DNA of 64,000 bases from Psococerastis gibbosa (Eukaryota > Arthropoda > Insecta > Psocodea > Psocidae), in the NCBI GenBank assembly GCA_963971405.1, contig OZ020485.1, positions 1,798,001-1,862,000 on the forward strand, in the 5' to 3' direction. Of the stretch, positions 2,698-62,363 are shown one piece after another. The notes below the pieces were generated by a model, which searched no databases, was not told the DNA's origin, and worked only from the letters and a program-made list of their open reading frames with translations. How positions within the stretch are numbered: position 1 is the first letter of the stretch; each line of letters starts with the position of its first letter. Position numbers and translations under genes: made by a program.

Positions 2698-2915
2698 GCC
2701 AGAAGACAAAAGTTTTAAAGTTAGTTTTGGTTTTTTGAAAATAATAAAATATTGCATTGGCGTAAATAAGGGGGTCCTGGGCGGGGGGGGGGGGGCTTAG
2801 CCTCCTCCCCAGGATTTCCGGTGACAAAGGAAGCGAAAGGCATCGTATCCGCAATAACGAAAGGGAAATTAATTCTTGGTATGCTTATTTTACATGAAAG
2901 ACATCATGAAAAGAA

Positions 2916-3069
2916 TCCAATGTAGGGTTTCTCTCGTGACTTCGTGGAAACGAAATATAATGTGTAGAGTAATAAAATTGAACAAATTTGAATAATTTCC
3001 ACATAAATGTATTATTAAAAGTTAAAAATTAGTTACAGCTGTTTCGGTGGTACACCATCATCGGTCTAC
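2916..3069 (-). mobile_element. Short PLE/retrozyme-like insertion with hammerhead motif
   Basis: A 154-bp insertion is flanked by the 15-bp direct repeat ACATCATGAAAAGAA (2901-2915 and 3070-3084). Its minus-strand 5' end is a hammerhead-like motif and near its 3' end (2933-2947) lies CCACGAAGTCACGAG. The same box occurs in the 62-kb hammerhead element and behind the PLE at 49568. Direct repeats of this length fit PLE integration. It is far too small to encode protein and must have moved with help from another element. Confidence 0.7.
3030..3066 (-). ncRNA. Hammerhead ribozyme-like motif (one core change)
   Basis: On the minus strand: CCGATGA (3058-3064; consensus CUGANGA, so U4 is C), one U, stem II GGTG-TAC-CACC, then GAAAC (3041-3045). 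Stem III is the perfect self-complementary ACAGCTGT (3035-3042), and the cleavage-site base is A. A UAG/CUA stem I is possible beyond an A-A mismatch. The architecture matches the other hammerheads here. The U4 change probably weakens or abolishes cleavage. Confidence 0.55.
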
Positions 3070-3539
3070 ACATCATGAAAAGAAATCAACATTTTGACCA
3101 AGTACATTCCCAAAAATATATGACTCAAAATGCCTAAAACCACAATATTTCAATATTTGTCAAAACTTTTCTTCGGGGGAGACCCCCCCCCCCCCCCTCC
3201 AGTGGTAGGTTTATTTTCAATGTATTTTTATTATGTATTTTCAACTGTATTGCTTGCAAAATGCGTAAAACCTCACTAATTTGGGCCTATAGTTATCAAT
3301 TTTTATTTCCGGGTGAGACCTCCGGGCCCCCATATCTCCAAGGTATAATATTCGTAAAACCTCACTAATTTGGGCCTATTTCTCAATTTCTTTCACCGGG
3401 CGCTAGGCAAAAGTTTTGCCTCGGGAGCTGAAAAACCACGGGCCGGCCCTGGTCACTGGAGGTGAGATAAATTCTAGATAGGTGAGACCAACACATTATC
3501 ACTTGGCAGGGCACGCAAGGCATTTCAGCGTGAATTTTC

Positions 3540-33294: not shown

Positions 33295-34550
33295 CACTGA
33301 AAGAAATGTTTACGAAAGCCATTTTCGTAAGCGTTTTTTTCGTTAGTGCAACGAAACATTATTATCGTAGTTCGTTGCATTAACAATATCGCTTTTCGTT
33401 AAAGTTCATTGTCGTTGGGTTCACAAAAGTGACTTTTTCGTTAGCCATTATCGTTGCTACTACGAAAAGCGCCTTAACGAAAACCCGCAATTTTCGGTTT
33501 TCATTAATGCAACGAATCTTCCAATTTCGTAAAACTGATTTTCGTATCAGTAACGAAATAACATATAAGGTTTCTATCTGGAGCTGTTCTGATTCGCGCC
33601 AAAATTCAAACGTCCATTTGAAAAAACTTTATTTTAAGCTTTGGAAGGTTTTGATATGCATGTGATAACCAAGAAACAACATAAAAGATGAAATTACAAC
33701 GAATGAAACCATTTTTCTAAAGAATTTGGCATAATTACGAAGTTTCCTTTAAGCTCATACCGATTCTCAAATTTACTATCATATATGGATGCAGCTAGGC
33801 CCCTAGCTTTTACCTAGGAAATTCAACCCATTTTTAATGGTGACATGAAAAACGCAGCGGAAAACGAGGTCTGTAAGGCTTCCCGAAATTCGGGTTACAG
33901 GATTGGTTCGAACCGAACCGGGTAACCACGAACCTAGCCCCGGGAGTATCCATGAGCATTCTGAACTTGCCTATAGATAGACAGGTAGAGATTCAGTTTG
34001 CATCGGAAAATTGACATGGGGAAGTTTCATGTTTCGAACTTGAGAACCGAGGATCGGCCTAACCTCGAACAGAACCAGGGACCAATCCTACACTACAATT
34101 AATTCCAGAGGCTCAGTTGGAAAATCTACATAAAATTTCTGGGGTTGGATAATTTTCGCAGAATCAACTCGAACCGAACCTAAAGTTATTCATCGTCGAA
34201 CTGAAGTGAGGGAAAGGTTCATTTCGAGGTTAGGCCTATATCTTATGAGTCCTAAACAATTGGCACATGATTAGAGAGGCTTGCAAAGGGGTGATCCCGG
34301 CAGTCGCAGATAAAACGTTTTAGGCTACATTGAGGCGCAGGAGTACTCCTCATGAGCTTTCCTAGATTCACGAGGTTCGGTTTGGATTAGAAAATTGACA
34401 AGGGATTTCTTGTTTCAAGCTGGGCCAGACAATTTAGGGAAAACGTAACTTCAACCCGAATGTAACTGCAAAGGCTTTCACGGCCAGAGTCGATTGAAGA
34501 ACTTGAAGAATCCGGGCTGATGGGCCGTGGTCGAAATGAAAGTGAACTTC

Positions 34551-34592
34551 CAAACGCTTCGTCAACATCTGCGGTTGACATCTTCAGTGGCG
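34551..34592 (-). ncRNA. Hammerhead-like motif, GAAA changed
   Basis: Minus strand: CTGAAGA intact, stem II GTCAAC / GTTGAC intact, but GAAG replaces GAAA before CGTTTGG. Confidence 0.6.
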
Positions 34593-34668
34593 CTGCGTAG
34601 ACTTCGAAGATTGTACTATATTGACTCGCTACGGAGCCACCGAGGTACAATCTTCGAAGTCTACGCAG

Positions 34669-34713
34669 CGCTACTGAAGATGTCAACCGCAGATGTTGAC
34701 GAAACGTTTGGAA
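34669..34713 (+). ncRNA. Hammerhead ribozyme, intact core
   Basis: Plus strand: CTGAAGA (34674-34680), one U, stem II GTCAAC-CGCAGAT-GTTGAC, GAAAC (34701-34705), then GTTT. The core satisfies CUGANGA / GAAA / NUH with H=U. Stem III is self-complementary AC/GU inside AAACGTTT, too short for a single molecule, so a dimer is expected. Stem I can start with CUA/UGG. Predicted self-cleavage would fall after the U at 34707. Confidence 0.7.
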
Positions 34714-35744
34714 GTTCATTTTCATTTCGACCACCGCCCATCAGCCCGGATTCTACTGGTTCTTCATTCCCTCAACCTGAATGTATAGTCGAACCAAAGC
34801 GAAGCAAAGTTCAGCTCGAGGTTCGGTTCGTGATGCACTATGCTTTTCCTTAAAACCCTAGACTATCGTGATATAACATAGGGTGGCATATAAAGCACAG
34901 TGACCCAGGCAGCCGCAGTTTAATTTTTAAGCTGCATAAGCTACATGTACCTACTGTTGGCAGTGTGGTCCATTGGGGGGGGGGGGGGTCGGAATACATT
35001 GTTCCAACCCTCCATTAATCATTTTTAAGAAACTGCATGTTTTTCGTAACTGTAACGACAATGGGTTTCTTAAAGGTGTTTCGTAAATTTGACGAAACTG
35101 GGTTTTTGTCGTATTGGCTACGAAATACAAGGCCTGAGCAGCGGAGTGCGCACATCCTTTTCGTTCCTGGTACGAAATGGAATGGGAGAGGGTAGCAGGT
35201 TTTCTGAGTTTTCTCCCATTACCATTTCGAATTCAGTCTGTTTCCAAATCGCATCAGTAACGGAGCTATTGCTCTTTTTTTTCTATCTTGTCATTTAATA
35301 TATCATAATTATTGGTCTTACTTTTATTTATTGTTTATTATTTTATTATTAAAATTACTTTTGCAATTTGGTATAATATATTGAAAGAACAAATAATTGA
35401 AATGAATTACCCTATTTTATTTACTACAAGTCGCAAATTTCCCCTCACAAACGCACATAGTGTATTTTTAGCTGTAACTGTAAGGCAGTAGGCTAAGGGG
35501 ACTCCCTTCAGTTTTATACCTTGCTATGTTATTGATTCAGTTGATATGGCAATAGAAAGAAATCTGCCTTATAAAACGATTAAAGTGAGACCCTTGTATG
35601 TTTACAGATGTTTTCGAAGGTATATTGTATATGTTTCGCCGAGAGTGCTTTGCTTCTGCAGCTTGCCTTTGGAGCAACTTCTATAGGCCTACATCCCAAA
35701 GATAAATAGCAGCCTGTGCGGCAGCAGATGAAATGAGCTGTGAT

Positions 35745-43707: not shown

Positions 43708-45433
43708 CTGTTCGCCCAGAAAAGTTTGCAAATGTCCATGAAAATATCCCTTAATGCTTTACCAAGTCGGGGACAAGCCCCGCCTCTCCATGTAAATTCC
43801 CTATGCTGCATTTTCAAATTAGATAGGACTACTTTGCATGTGTTTGTATACACAACACTAACGGGGGTTCCATTCCAAATTTAATGCATCAAGGTCAGAA
43901 GTGGACATTGCTTATTTTTTTAGTTAAAATTGTCGATCTGTTGCAGTTTTTACGAATTCACGACTCCAATGTCAAAATTAAAATTAAAGTTTTCTGAATG
44001 TTAGTTAATTATCTTCAACTACTGTAGCAGCGTTAGTGGAACGGTTTTAGGATCATCATAGAACAAAATCAAAGCAATATTTATTGTTATAAATATTATT
44101 AGTGATGCGTTTCTTGAGTTTGAGAAATTTATAAAATTTTCATCTTACCATACTGTGTTATAAAATGGATCAACTTAAAAGTAGAAAGTTAACTTAAGAG
44201 CGTTCAGGCCACAGAATAGAGTTTCTGTGTATCACACCAATAACGGTCTCGTCAAGGTATACAATGCGATTTCCTTCCGACCTGGCGTTTCGGATTCCTT
44301 GCAAATACCTATAACGCCAAAAAAGCGTGCGTGGCGACTCAACCAAGACGTTGTATTTTGTCAAACATCTTAAATCTGCACAGCATTTAAATTGTGACTT
44401 CTTTGTTTCTGCTGCACTTCTGATGCGTGTATTTAAAATAGTCTCCTCAACCGACTGGTTGTGTTTTTTATTATACCTGAAATGAAGACGCCTAATGATA
44501 AATACGCGGAGGCTCTCCTTGGGCATTTGGTAACGACCATCAAGCTCTAATATTTCTTGTCGCAGGGTGTCCAAGCTTAACAGTCAGCAATCATCCTAGG
44601 ATGAATATACATAATTATTGGGTCCCTTATCATACTTTCATCACATTCGTCGAGATTATTGTAGTATTTTTGACGTCTTCTTTCCTTTATATTTTTGTTG
44701 ATTTTATACCTCGACGGACTCCTAGACTCTGTATATATATATATAATGTATATCCTAAAAATAACTTTCAACTTCCTTAAATAGTTCGCAAAGGTTTAAG
44801 ATAATCATTCATACCTCCTAGTGAATTTGCTTGCCTTGCCAAACGGTTCATGCGGAAATGTTGCTTCAGTTGCTTCCTCTTACTAGGCCTGCTTCCTTTG
44901 GTAAGACTTAACCATCTTTTCTGTGGTCTGAATGCCCTAACTTCGATATTAACTGTCTACTTTCAAGTTGATCCATTTTATAACACAGTATGGTAAGATG
45001 AAAATTTTATAAATTTCTCAAATTCAAGAAACGCATCACTAATAATATATATAACAATAAATATTGCTTTGATTTTGTTCTATGATGATCCTAAAACCGT
45101 TCCACTAACGCTGCTACAGTAGTTGAAGATAATTAACTAACATTCAGAAAATTTTGATTTTAATTTTGACATTGGAGTCGTGAATTCGTAAAAACTGCAA
45201 CAGATCGACAATTTTAACTAAAAAAATAAGCAATGTCCACTTGTGACCTTAATGCATTAAATTTGGAATGGAACCCCCGTAAGTGTTGTGTATACAAACA
45301 CATGCAAAGTAGTTCTATCTGATTTGAAAATGCAGCATAGGGAATTTACATGGAGAGGCGGGGCTTGTCCCCGACTTGGTAATGCATTAAGGGATATTTT
45401 CATGGACATTTGCAAACTTTTCTGGGCGAACAG
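43708..45433. mobile_element. Tc1-like element B with ~0.5-kb terminal inverted repeats
   Basis: 1,726 bp, exact ends CTGTTCGCCCAGAAAAG and CTTTTCTGGGCGAACAG, with TA on each side (43706-43707, 45434-45435), the duplication of the Tc1/mariner superfamily. Arms 43708-44215 and 44925-45433 match at well over 90 percent by eye. The inner ends of the arms reach into the transposase 3' coding sequence (TTCTGTGGCCTGAACG). The central 0.7 kb holds a truncated transposase. Confidence 0.88.
44194..44771 (-). pseudogene. Truncated Tc1/mariner-superfamily transposase
   Basis: Two frames: 44771-44577 (YKINKNIKERRRQKYYNN ... MYIHPRMIAD) and 44574-44194 (LRQEILELDGRYQMPKESLR ... YLQGIRNARSEGNRIVYLDE TV). 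A short insertion carrying TGTTAAGCTTGG separates them, absent from copy A. The VYLDET box with upstream YLxxIRxAR is the form of the first catalytic Asp region in a DDE family of the IS630/Tc1 group. The protein ends 14 residues after this box, inside the terminal repeat, so the second Asp and last acidic residue are missing. It is an internal-deletion derivative. Confidence 0.75.
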
Positions 45434-45998: not shown

Positions 45999-47610
45999 TT
46001 GAATAACTTCAAAATAATAATAACAATGGCAAAACTACATGTACACATTGTCAAGGAAGCTGAAGGACAATATGAAATTCACACTTTATCTGAAGACAAA
46101 GAAACTTGGTTTACAATTCCAGAACATCTACGGGATTTGTCGATTCATTACGAGTTGTTGAAAGTAAAAACTATCGTGAGTAGTTGTAACAGTATTTCAA
46201 AAATTGGAGGCTATCGAAAAGTCTCTATTCTATGCACCGAGGACCTTCAATGAACTTATTTTGATGAACATGGCAATTTTTGTATGGACGAAATTTACTT
46301 TGAGGAACAGAAACTTGAAGATGCCAATGTCACAATGGACGTAGGAGATAGTTCTTTGCACATGACAGAATCATTATTAATGAGACGTATTCGGGAATTA
46401 GAATCCCAAATTATTTCTTTTCATAAATTAGCTTGTTAGATGTCGAAAGGAAATTTTTGGTAGAGAAGTTTAATGGTAAACCAGAGGCTCTTACGTGGAT
46501 AGAAACATTTGAAAAAGAATGCGTGCGTTACAAAATCGTTGATCAGACTAAAAAAATTGAAACTTTGAAATTCTTTCTTGATAAAAATGTAATGGAATGG
46601 TATTCATCAAACTTGCTTAAGCTGCCATTGAATAATTGGGAACTTTGTAAAAATTCGTTCTTAATTGTTTACGAAAAAAGAAATTGGGAATGTATTCGTA
46701 CAGCTTTTGATTTTAAGTACATAGGTGATTGCTTGATTTTGCTGTAAAAAAGGAACGTTTATTGTTAGATGTTGACAAAAATATGCCTGAAATGTTTAGA
46801 GTATATCAAATAGTTTACACACTGCCTCTGGAGACTCAAGATAAATTAGACCGAGAAAAAATTCAGACTTTTGATGATTTACTACAAGAACAGAAGAAAA
46901 TGAATGTGTACGGTTTAAGAAGAAAAATCATATGAATAATTTTCTGAAGATAAAAAAAGTTTTGATAATGTTAAGACTACAGAGGGAGTACGGAAACCGT
47001 GCACAACTTGTGATGGGCTTGGATATAAAAATCGATATCACCCTGTTCAGTTCTGCAGGAATAAAGATACTAAACAGAAAAGAATGATTATGAATGTAGC
47101 GGAGGAGATGAGTGATGATTATTCACAATATAAAAAAAACTAAGAGGCCCGGACAGAAGTACCCCACTTCCGCTGCTAAAAGTTAAAATTATTGTCAACA
47201 AACATAAATTGATAATTGCAGTTTATGACAGTGGTTCAACATGTTCGTAAGTAAACGAAGAACTTGTTAGGCTACTGAAATCAAAACTGATTGAAAACCG
47301 GACGGTTTTAAGAAGCTTAGGGAGTGCGGACTTCTGCAAGAACCGGGCAAATTTGCACTTGAAAATCGGTAAAATTGAAGATACACTCAATGTGCACGTT
47401 GTAAAGAATGATAAATTTCATTATGATTTATTATTGGGTTTAGACGCAATACAGAAATTCAAAATGATCCAAGATGAGAGTTTGCATATTAAACAACGGA
47501 TCAATGGAAGAGAATTTTCTATTAGCGAGCCCATAATTTCGGAGAAGGGCAATAAGAACCTGGCGACACCTGAAATTAATCTGAATGAGAACAGGTCAGA
47601 TTTATCTCAT
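45999..47610 (+). pseudogene. LTR-retroelement Gag-protease region, decayed
   Basis: Successive frames on one strand: an N-terminal region (46026-46435, one stop), a capsid-like Gag (46433-46930: FNGKPEALTWIETFEKEC, IETLKFFLDKNVMEWY, then a frameshift near 46735), a zinc knuckle (PCTTCDGLGYKNRYHPVQFC, spacing C-x2-C-x9-H-x4-C, near 47000) and an aspartic protease (VYDSGSTCS near 47225, then YDLLLGLDAIQKF near 47425). The RT start resumes at 49616 beyond a PLE insertion. The order Gag-knuckle-protease-RT is that of Ty3/gypsy-type elements. It has stops and shifts and no LTR that I can see. Confidence 0.82.
47595..47610. repeat. Target-site duplication of the PLE, left copy
   Basis: GTCAGATTTATCTCAT; matches 49600-49615 (GTCAAATTTATCTCAT) at 15 of 16 bases. 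Confidence 0.8.
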
Positions 47611-47722
47611 AAACAAAAAATAACAAAAACTTAGAGTTTTAGAAAAACTTGTTATAACAACCCGAATTAGTAAAACCCAAATAATCGTTAAGAAATTAAC
47701 TTTGTCTAAGAAACCCACTTGT
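47609..47722 (-). repeat. Inverted terminal arm of the PLE, left
   Basis: 114 bp, exact inverse of 49443-49556 as far as I compared (ACAAGTGGGTTTCTTAGAC ... TTTTTGTTTAT). Confidence 0.9.
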
Positions 47723-47723
47723 A

Positions 47724-47948
47724 TTAGTGGCGGGGTGTGAAGTTTGATAGCTCGCGAATGTGTTTGTTGAGAAAACTAGCTACTTTGCTGGCTGGGGCAC
47801 TGTTATACGAAACTACTGGGCGGATAGGTTGATTGGGTTTAAGAAGTTTAACCAGACCAAAAAATGAAGGAGCTACGGGGTTCATGTTGGTAAATTTATA
47901 GGCTATATCTTGGGGTATCGTATTAGAGCAATACCACAGCGTCAAAAA
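47724..47948 (-). pseudogene. PLE reverse transcriptase N-terminal segment, inverted
   Basis: The minus strand reads IPQDIAYKFTNMNPVAPSFF then GLVKLLKPNQPIRPVVSYN and SAPASKVASFLNKHIREL, the PLE RT block before motif A. It is in the opposite sense to the rest of the protein and its end (FTPRH) adjoins, in the parent, the VKNSFELVSR at 47949. Confidence 0.88.
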
Positions 47949-48564
47949 CTCATTCGAGTTGGTTTCCCGCCTTAAGCACCTTTCCTTATCCAGCAATGCC
48001 AAACTCGTCTCTTTCGATGTCAAAAATCGGTTTACTAATATTCCCGTACCCGAAGTACGTAAATTAGTTGCCCAGTCACTCTATCACAATAATACCTCGA
48101 CCAGCCTTATTTCTGAGACCCTCCTTCTGTTAGACACATGCACTCATCAAAACTATTTCCGTTTCGAATCCGACTACTACCAACAAAAAATAGGCCTACC
48201 TATGGGTTCTTCCCTTTCTCCCCTTCTTGCTGAAATTTTTATGGATAACTTCGAACACAAACTTCTACTCAATAAAAATCCCCTAGTTAAATGTATATCT
48301 TTCTGGACAAGGTATGTGGATGATATCTTCTGCATTTGGACAGGAAGTAACAGACAACTAGACAATTTCTTAAGTTTTATCAACACAATTCACCCAAAAA
48401 TCCAATTTACCATGGAAGTAGAAGAAAACAACTCACTGAACTTCTTAGACCTCACCATCATCAAAAATAATAGTACCCTAGACTTCAAGATATTTCGTAA
48501 AGAAACCCATAGCGATAATATATTCCTGAGTAGTTTTCTTCTACTTCCACGCAGCATTCCATAG
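47949..48564 (+). pseudogene. PLE reverse transcriptase, core
   Basis: Residues in order: motif A KLVSFDVKNRFTNIPV, then YFRFESDYYQQKIGLPMGSS (motif B region) SLSPLLAEIFMDNFE, and motif C RYVDDIFCIW. The catalytic Asp residues are kept. After ETHSDNI the frame leaves the normal PLE course: 48527-48549 holds an inverted copy of 48413-48429 in place of the usual linker, ending the frame at 48564. PLE RTs are related to telomerase RT. Active protein is unlikely because of the inversion upstream and the break here. Confidence 0.9.
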
Positions 48565-48565
48565 T

Positions 48566-49297
48566 ATGATTTTTCGACTCCTTAACATCCTTATGAATGA
48601 AACCAACTATAATAATGAATTAAATACAATAAAACAAATTGCCCAAAATAACAATTTCAATCTCAACCTAATAGACAGAATCCTACGACATCACAAAATC
48701 AAACACAACCTCAAACTAATTTACCCCCCAGAGAGCTTAAACCCGGTAACCAATAAATCATATTTCAGGATACAATACATAGAAAAAATCACTGAAAAAA
48801 TAAGTAACCTCATTTCTTCTACAACAGACAAAACACCAGCCCCGTACAACCGCAACAATTTGGCCAATAAACTCATGAACTGCAAAACCAAACCAGAAAA
48901 GGAAAAAGGCAATGGAGTTTATCGTCTAAATTGTAACGATTGTAACGCAATTTACATAGGCCAAACAGGCAGAAGCTTTAAAACTAGGGTCAGAGAACAT
49001 ATAACAGGTATAGGAGACACCAACACCAACAGCACATTCGCGAAACACCTTAACTCGGAAAATCACACATTCGATCCTCACAATTGGACAGCCCTACACA
49101 AAATAAAGAAAAGTTACACTTTAAATTTTTTTGAAAATGTTGAAATCAAAAGAGCTTTACACAATAGGGAAAAATTAACAAACGACATAACATTCACACA
49201 ATCATCCCCTCTAATAGATCTAGCTAGTAGGTTAGGAATAGGTAACCAGCCACGCCCCCTCCCACCCCCTCCTCCCCCCGCTCCCAGTCCTATATAA
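48566..49297 (+). CDS. PLE linker and GIY-YIG endonuclease domain
   Basis: 243 open codons. The linker (NETNYNNELNTIKQIAQNN, then NLNLIDRILRHHK) precedes the nuclease at about residues 112-210: GVYRLNCNDCNAIYIGQTGR (GIY as GVY, YIG intact, a Cys pair), SFKTRVREH with the conserved Arg and His, STFAKHLNSENHTFD, and a final FENVEIKRALHNREK with the likely catalytic Glu. The domain makes the target nick that primes PLE reverse transcription. It ends in a Pro-rich tail (PRPLPPPPPP). The frame is open but detached from the RT, so only a partial product is possible. Confidence 0.9.
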   Translation: MIFRLLNILMNETNYNNELNTIKQIAQNNNFNLNLIDRILRHHKIKHNLKLIYPPESLNPVTNKSYFRIQYIEKITEKISNLISSTTDKTPAPYNRNNLANKLMNCKTKPEKEKGNGVYRLNCNDCNAIYIGQTGRSFKTRVREHITGIGDTNTNSTFAKHLNSENHTFDPHNWTALHKIKKSYTLNFFENVEIKRALHNREKLTNDITFTQSSPLIDLASRLGIGNQPRPLPPPPPPAPSPI

Positions 49298-49442
49298 ACC
49301 AAGGTTTCCTCTCTCTAGTCACATTTGCATCTTCTCCTCGAGTTGAGCAAGTCTCAAATCGCAGATAAGGTGTAACTGTGCTAGTGGGTTTCCCTCTGTA
49401 GATGGCAGTTCTTGCCGAAAGCGCTCAGGGTTTTATACTAAC
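49298..49442 (+). other. PLE 3' untranslated region
   Basis: Shares CTCTGTAGATGGCAGTTCTTG and neighbouring sequence, up to short runs, with 28237-28370, showing it belongs to the element. Confidence 0.75.
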
Positions 49443-49556
49443 ACAAGTGGGTTTCTTAGACAAAGTTAATTTCTTAACGATTATTTGGGTTTTACTAATT
49501 CGGGTTGTTATAACAAGTTTTTCTAAAACTCTAAGTTTTTGTTATTTTTTGTTTAT
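49443..49556 (+). repeat. Terminal arm of the PLE, right
   Basis: Inverse of 47609-47722. Directly followed by TAAAATGAAATACCACGAAG, repeated at 51351-51370. Confidence 0.9.
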
Positions 49557-49599
49557 TAAAATGAAATACCACGAAGTCACGAGTAATCTAATTATTTAT

Positions 49600-49615
49600 G
49601 TCAAATTTATCTCAT
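49600..49615. repeat. Target-site duplication of the PLE, right copy
   Basis: GTCAAATTTATCTCAT; one mismatch with 47595-47610. Confidence 0.8.
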
Positions 49616-49791: not shown

Positions 49792-49866
49792 CACTCGCTA
49801 CGGAGCCTCCGAGGTACAACCTTCGAAGTCTACGCAGCGCCACTGAAGATGTCGTCCGCAGATTGA
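49792..49866 (+). mobile_element. PLE terminus fragment with half hammerhead
   Basis: CACTCGCTACGGAGCC, CGAGGTACAACCTTCGAAG and TACGCAGCGCCACTGAAGATG match the palindromic elements at 29.1 and 34.6 kb. The hammerhead stops after its first half (CTGAAGA, U, GTCGTCCGCAGA) where RepB begins. Confidence 0.75.
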
Positions 49867-51348: not shown

Positions 51349-51385
51349 GTTAAAATGAAATATCACGAAGTTACGAGTAGGTTAT
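51349..51385 (+). repeat. PLE tail-like box
   Basis: TTAAAATGAAATATCACGAA followed by GTTACGAGTAGGTTATCTAA, a near copy of the PLE tail at 49556-49592. Confidence 0.6.
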
Positions 51386-62139: not shown

Positions 62140-62152
62140 ATGACCCAGTCAT
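62140..62152. repeat. Target-site duplication, left copy
   Basis: ATGACCCAGTCAT, repeated exactly at 62351-62363. Confidence 0.85.
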
Positions 62153-62350
62153 CATGAGTAGAGGAAGAAGAACGCAATGATCCACAGTAAAATACATTAA
62201 TAGTGACCGGTTTCGGATTAAATCCATCATCAGACTACGAACCGAAACCGGTCACTATTAAAGTATTTTACTGTGGATTATTGCGTTCTTCTTCCTCTAC
62301 TCATGATGTTCTCCAAGTTCCACGAAGTCACCTAGGAAACTCTCACAAGG
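62153..62350. mobile_element. 198-bp palindromic hammerhead element
   Basis: Inserted in the LINE with an exact 13-bp duplication. Arms 62151-62216 and 62242-62307 are near-perfect inverse copies (CATGAGTAGAGGAAGAAGAA, TAGTGACCGGTTTCGG). The centre completes a hammerhead on the minus strand. A 43-bp tail follows the right arm and contains TTCCACGAAGTCAC (62319-62331), then AGGAAAC. The same box ends the 154-bp element at 2916-3069. Confidence 0.85.
62201..62237 (-). ncRNA. Hammerhead ribozyme, intact core
   Basis: Minus strand: stem I TAGT, CTGATGA (62233-62227), one U, stem II GGATT-T-AATCC, GAAAC (62214-62210), self-complementary stem III ACCGGT (62211-62206), cleavage base C (62205), stem I ACTA. 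Every consensus position (CUGANGA, GAAA, GUC) is present. As stem III has no loop, an active form would need two copies pairing, as known for PLE and other minimal hammerheads. Predicted cut between 62205 and 62204. Confidence 0.75.
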
Positions 62351-62363
62351 ATGACCCAGTCAT
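62351..62363. repeat. Target-site duplication, right copy
   Basis: ATGACCCAGTCAT, identical to 62140-62152. Confidence 0.85.

Follow-up and report, generated by a model that had tools for sequence, protein, structure and literature searches.

The two short hammerhead-bearing insertions in a 64,000 nt stretch of the Psococerastis gibbosa genome (the whole stretch analyzed, here called the window) are, to judge from their letters, truncated ends of two different Penelope-type elements (PLEs). Short hammerhead insertions of this kind are very probably terminal PLE copies made by a PLE reverse transcriptase/GIY-YIG endonuclease, each ending inside the start of the reading frame. A preliminary description of the window had treated them as separate small hammerhead elements sharing only a 3' box, CCACGAAGTCAC. 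Its sizes and duplications (154 bp with a 15-bp duplication, 198 bp with a 13-bp duplication) are exact at the places it gave, but the separation was wrong, the two being PLE ends of families II and I, respectively.

Insertion 1 (2916–3069, minus strand, 154 bp) is a 5'-truncated family II PLE end comprising a hammerhead-like head, the pLTR, the start of the open reading frame with the box (2936–2947, minus strand, exact; codons of FHEVT) and the tail. It is flanked by the 15-bp target-site duplication ACATCATGAAAAGAA at the element 3' end (2901–2915) and 5' end (3070–3084), the two copies being identical at 15/15 positions. The element begins 5 bases before its hammerhead-like core (CCGATGATGG..CCGAAA, 3042–3064, minus strand, with C replacing U4) and ends 32 nt past the first base of the box. 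Insertion 2 (62153–62350, plus strand, 198 bp) lies between 13-bp duplications ATGACCCAGTCAT (62140–62152 and 62351–62363, 13/13 identical) and joins a family I end to an inverted head. The direct part (62242–62350, plus strand) is a truncated family I end with the tail and the box (62320–62331), while the inverted head (62153–62241, minus strand) is the reverse complement of a family I end without box and tail, starting about 11–14 nt before the box position. Since the direct half begins midway through the hammerhead, the sole complete core of this insertion (CTGATGATGGATTTAATCCGAAA, 62211–62233, minus strand) is that of the inverted head and runs antisense to the box. By reading, both insertions hold a single unit between their duplications, with no tandem unit.

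The same box is found in the tail of a longer PLE copy in the window. This family A copy (47611–49599, plus strand, 1989 bp) opens with an inverted pLTR head from 47611 and is bounded by target-site duplications at 47595–47610 and 49600–49615 (15/16 identical). Its reading frame, broken in this copy, contains a reverse-transcriptase part (47959–48564, plus strand; Pfam PF00078, 46 bits) and a GIY-YIG endonuclease part (48566–49297, plus strand; Pfam PF01541, 24.4 bits with a cut-off of 22.6). The hammerhead position is degenerate (CTGTAGATGGCAGTTCTTGCCGAAAG, 49396–49421, plus strand, with U replacing A6), and CTGTAGATGGCAGTTCTTGCCGAAAG occupies the hammerhead-equivalent place in 9/9 family A copies printed. 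The box (49569–49580) and the remaining tail run to the element 3' end (49569–49599, plus strand). At the left edge of the window, positions 1–760 hold inverted and rearranged family A PLE fragments with a LINE-like insertion inside, which by eye shows an apparent TGTCGTAGGA duplication.

Element 3' ends do carry the box as a genuine feature and, as the preliminary description expected, full PLEs carry it too. Exact copies of CCACGAAGTCAC occur in the window at 2936–2947 (minus strand), 49569–49580 (plus strand) and 62320–62331 (plus strand), so that both insertions do share it with the PLE tail at 49569. Allowing up to two mismatches yields 11 matches, whereas shuffled sequence gives 2.29 on average and 0/100 shuffles reach 11. 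One further occurrence, previously placed at 51361, exists as a diverged match, TCACGAAGTTAC, but its true place is 51363–51374 (plus strand, 2 mismatches); by eye it belongs to a tail remnant resembling family A/A'. Across the 409,210,807 bases and 68 contigs of the genome scanned, the box has 1614 + 1611 = 3225 matches compared to 7 + 9 = 16 for a reversed-pattern control.

Nearly all box loci that we read are PLE ends. The sample consisted of the 100 matches listed out of 3225, all on contig C1, and the three window loci, giving 103 loci; 40 were read over 3 kb of flank in both directions and 60 over about 450 bp upstream and 120 bp downstream of the box. PLE ends of six tail types account for 98 of the 100 listed loci and 3/3 window loci (101/103): 41 of type A, 8 of A', 15 of I, 9 of II, 16 of III and 12 of IV. 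Tail-string scores sorted 99 of these and two (L009, L086) were added by eye, while L065 and L077 fit none of the six types. PLE endonuclease sequence is located directly upstream of the terminal segment in L019, L028 and L036 (family A), L010 (family I) and L040 and L044 (family III). For family II, the endonuclease C-terminus lies upstream in L088 (52.8% to family I, query residues 149–218, E = 6e-18) and again in L093 (E = 2.7e-4). The preliminary description had itself named simple 5'-truncated PLE copies as the finding that would overturn it, and this is what the 154-bp insertion proved to be; the same is essentially true of the 198-bp insertion given the endonuclease upstream in L010, its extra half being an inverted pLTR head of the sort known in PLEs. 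In total, endonuclease is found upstream at 16/103 loci at E ≤ 0.001, a count for which 60 loci were covered over only about 450 bp upstream and from which L107 was excluded as its match falls in a part of the query outside the endonuclease. Type IV shows no upstream endonuclease at any of its 12 loci, most of them covered over only about 450 bp upstream.

At the level of sequence similarity, families A, I, II and III are thereby shown to be PLEs. Their endonucleases share 38% (A and I), 40% (A and III) and 57% (I and III) identity. Sampling by the exact box misses tail-less copies and PLEs lacking the box, and makes identity within the box partly a product of selection. Box-free family anchors scanned in the read loci returned 7 non-seed matches, namely the 3 window boxes and 4 with unrelated letters at the box place. 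A reverse-transcriptase motif gave 128 + 122 genomic matches (control 0 + 0); as the 50 among the matches listed all resemble family A, these matches cannot serve as a list of PLE families. One type III insertion recurs with near-identical flanks at eight places about 77–168 kb apart (L037, L039, L041–L043 and L045–L047; C1, about 2.98–3.74 Mb), perhaps representing a large repeated genomic unit.

The box sits between two breakpoints, the starts of inverted heads on one side and the element 3' ends on the other, in six tail types. To define boundaries, we reduced the 103 loci to 94 non-redundant ones by removing 9 likely duplicates: seven sharing the L037 insertion and flanks, L063 (same letters as L062) and L044 (near-identical to L040); L065 and L077 were kept. 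A target-site duplication, defined as a direct repeat that is exact over 11 bp or more, starts 26–36 nt past the first base of the box and has its other copy within 440 bp upstream, is present at 36/94 loci, and the remaining 58/94 show no exact duplication of at least 11 bp within 440 bp. Six shifted control windows found such a repeat at 1/94 (two windows) or 0/94 loci (four windows). Combined with four longer elements from a first scan of 43 loci, the 36 make up a set of 40 bounded elements. All 40 have their 3' end 29–34 nt past the first base of the box within the search window of 26–36 nt. Scored by script, 33 carry an inverted head, 6 are direct and 1, L093 with its endonuclease end, is unassigned; after a check by eye (L016 and L070 becoming inverted, L057 direct) the figures are 34 inverted, 5 direct and 1 other. 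The 32 script-scored inverted heads start 7–20 nt before the box, or 11–23 nt before it if shared bases are assigned to the duplication, and 0/32 include box or tail. Two exceptions, both from the first scan of 43 loci, lie outside the 40 bounded elements: L026 gives a weak inverted match beginning at +2, within the box, and the recurrent L037 insertion, whose tail is missing some of the bases that precede the box, begins at −3. In the bounded inverted-head elements the tail is found at one end only, in a sample where selection by the exact box favors tailed copies.

Within the known PLE tail the box also encodes [F/Y]HEVT near the start of the open reading frame, and it is in frame in the five family sequences compared. 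Starting with the ATG at the hammerhead core (A9) and running to the box, the family I frame reads MDFIRNRSLL...SKFHEVTKETLTR and the family III frame MVFYRNRSRL...MMKFHEVTLENLTM. In the copies of families II and IV that were read, the frame from the hammerhead ATG is interrupted, and another ATG immediately 5' of the box gives MFRFHEVTRETLHW and MFHFHEVTEETLSW, respectively; family A reads MKYHEVTSNL (all three by reading). At the third position, the F/Y, H, E and V codons have C, C, A and C, respectively, in families A, I, II, III and IV, while the following codons (T, E, T, L) vary there between the five. As these families were found via the box, their codon agreement alone is biased, and we therefore searched the genome with a pattern left free at the four third-base positions (TWYCAYGARGTNACNNNNGARAMYYTN), which covers types I–IV only. 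It has 575 + 568 = 1143 matches (control 1 + 0), of which 536 + 523 = 1059 contain the exact box (control 0 + 0) and 84 differ. Codons are thus frozen in types I–IV, with 1059/1143 matches using one of 32 possible combinations, a figure whose weight comes from a few families agreeing since copies within a family are not independent.

Outside the box the families have diverged. Identity between family consensuses averages 0.30, 0.41 and 0.47 in three successive 20-nt windows leading up to the box, 0.57 in the four bases immediately 5' of it and 0.46 in the 22 nt after it; the consensuses are box-anchored, ungapped and include duplicates, and the identity of 1.0 inside the box is by selection. 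With four synonymous positions frozen and the next ones variable, the codons of the box suggest a signal at the RNA level. The box as a stem-loop found no support: the PLE tails fold no better than shuffles (z = 1.50, −0.77, 0.77 and −0.34), and no stem-loop like that of an Anolis PLE is seen in them. Nor did the box as a target-site motif, as the rejoined insertion sites of the 40 elements match it at best at 5–7/12 positions in 37 cases and 8–9/12 in 3 (raw counts without a shuffled baseline) and display a weak A/T preference.

A functional hammerhead does not appear to be required for the box. The hammerhead-like cores of both insertions are real as sequence motifs. Rfam detects no hammerhead in the window at the gathering score or at E up to 10, three hammerhead-bearing stretches fold no better than shuffles (z = 0.18, −0.67 and −0.23) and insertion 1 has a minimum-energy fold other than a hammerhead. 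A core is located within 200 bp upstream of the box at 20/92 non-redundant assigned loci, 14 of them direct (2 also inverted) and 6 inverted only. Box and hammerheads are not coupled in the way the preliminary description implied: 72/92 loci have no core in this range, 49/49 of the commonest types, A/A', among them. In types I–IV, cores occur at 20/43 loci and are clearly enriched over a background of 7 in 218,480 bp of far flank. Box-ended insertion of A/A' copies without a core within 200 bp indicates that the core is apparently not needed for it. Direct cores of types I–IV lie 88–121 nt before the box, and the cores carry an extra U after A9 that yields the ATG, as in the Anolis element. 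Both insertion 1, at its 3069 end, and L014, likewise a direct copy, start 5–7 nt before the core. In L010 and L040 a TATA box precedes the core by 34 bp, so direct copies such as insertion 1 and L014 may begin at a transcription start site. Hammerhead cleavage was rejected as the maker of the 3' ends, which read ACAAGG, ATTTAT, CATTGG and CTATGA, unlike a hammerhead 3' product, and which by reading fall after the box, about 120–140 nt past the core.

The architecture of the elements and their tail are known biology; what stands out is the box, which looks frozen to an unusual degree between families. One element contains both reverse transcriptase and GIY-YIG endonuclease, and inverted plus direct pLTRs (34/40 bounded elements, not insertion 1), a tail and target-site duplications are present. 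In PMC3846280, Pen2a-type PLEs of Adineta vaga share the reverse transcriptase and GIY-YIG endonuclease, a TATA box in the pLTR, target-site duplications, an inverted 5' pLTR shorter than the direct one (by 37 bp), a 31-bp tail at one end, and a pLTR and tail that reach into the reading frame. Inverted heads with a short 3' extension are known for PLEs from both this source and PMC8969392, and an optional tail of 30–40 bp is known from other PLEs. In contrast to Pen2a-type elements, the tail here carries a 12-bp box that several diverged families have in identical form, and a large number of copies are very short. Our search of the open-licence literature found no report of a tail box common to several PLE families, and the letters CCACGAAGTCAC appeared there in two papers, neither of them about transposons to judge by its title.

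A Poseidon PLE of Anolis carolinensis (PAc) offers a parallel for how such ends could arise. PMC11167929 calls its protein the first PLE active in vitro, describes internal starts of reverse transcription in vitro and explains the tail by two such start sites early in the reading frame. The printed template shares a hammerhead core whose A9 starts the ATG, and copying begins about 110–120 nt into the ATG frame. It differs in containing no CCACGAAGTCAC, only a loose look-alike, CCATGAAAGCC, at ORF nt 96–106 (by eye), and in placing its start sites (nt 111–118) in an AC-rich stem-loop of a kind not seen in the tails here. The far breakpoint in P. gibbosa is 120–142 nt from the hammerhead-linked ATG in four sequences compared to 111–118 in the Anolis element, similar although not identical. 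By analogy, the PLE reverse transcriptase/GIY-YIG endonuclease would make each copy, with copying breaking off near the start of the template, and the two breakpoints would represent two internal start points of reverse transcription. The copy giving rise to the tail would begin at the far start point, and a copy primed from the opposite DNA strand at the near one, with the box acting as a putative signal in the RNA that the PLE protein recognizes or is positioned by; in types I–IV the hammerhead-like core would lie near the likely transcription start. A broader version, that CCACGAAGTCAC, while also supplying the N-terminal codons for FHEVT, is a clade-wide PLE RNA address positioning two divergent starts and letting the enzyme of one family copy the RNAs of others, including short ones lacking coding sequence, is offered tentatively by analogy with SINE-LINE pairs with common 3' tails.

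Conservation of the box solely as codons of a protein N-terminus, without any nucleic-acid signal, would account for its being in frame as [F/Y]HEVT in 5/5 family sequences. We regard this as doubtful given the four identical synonymous positions in A and I–IV alongside varying neighbors, a comparison biased by itself since the families were found via the box, and the single predominant combination in the free-codon search, which is free of this bias, notwithstanding that its weight rests on few families. It is unlikely that the box is instead a DNA recognition site of the PLE endonuclease serving self-targeted tandem insertion: work in D. virilis, cited in PMC11167929, found the tail necessary for endonuclease recognition of a plasmid, yet the rejoined insertion sites of the 40 elements are unlike the box. 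Recent exchange, in which a box-bearing start of a single origin spread between PLE families by template switching and not by selection, draws on the frequent joins between copies that the inverted heads reveal. Low identity between families on both sides of the box (0.47 over the preceding 20 bases and 0.46 over the following 22) renders repeated exchange of exactly about 12 nt improbable, and we give this origin very little credence.

The reading that the preliminary description favored, a metazoan retrozyme-like system of small non-autonomous hammerhead elements with unrelated bodies recruited by one PLE enzyme via the 3' box, is largely refuted and highly improbable. Metazoan non-LTR retrozymes, as characterized in PMC7229834, are small genomic repeats that carry a hammerhead and show duplications of more than 4 bp; PLEs were proposed as their likely mobilizers. 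The sizes and duplications of the two insertions resemble them, and endonuclease upstream at only 16/103 loci also fits. However, retrozymes form tandem units of about 170–400 nt with canonical type I hammerheads, whereas the elements here are single units with PLE-end bodies and with cores that are minimal, broken or missing altogether: insertion 1 shows C at U4, insertion 2 a core antisense to its box, the window no Rfam hammerhead match and 72/92 box loci no core within 200 bp, while endonuclease lies upstream in families I, II and III. What stands of the idea that the box is a site for a shared PLE reverse transcriptase/endonuclease is its position, which is compatible with use by the PLE reverse transcriptase; retrozyme-like sharing does not stand.

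Two other parts of the window contain related or repeat-bounded sequence. At 34500–34790 and at 49849 there is an inverted-repeat piece with a hammerhead-like core (CTGAAGATG..GACGAAACG) and without the CCACGAAGTCAC box. The core ATG of the 34500–34790 piece opens MSTADVDETFGSSFSFRPPPISP, by eye reminiscent of the Anolis Poseidon N-terminus, and no duplication was found around this piece, which is possibly a second PLE lineage without the box. A long inverted repeat (about 43720–44160 versus 44980–45430, by eye) surrounds an open reading frame at 44194–44574, and this region (43720–45430) is possibly a DNA transposon.

The interpretation of the two insertions as terminal PLE copies carries a warning: where a genome is rich in PLEs, short 'hammerhead insertions' can be ends of such elements instead of retrozymes. 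For the question of how PLEs choose an RNA and where on it copying starts, a box that stays constant amid diverged surroundings, at a fixed place between two breakpoints, provides a 12-nt target for a direct test.
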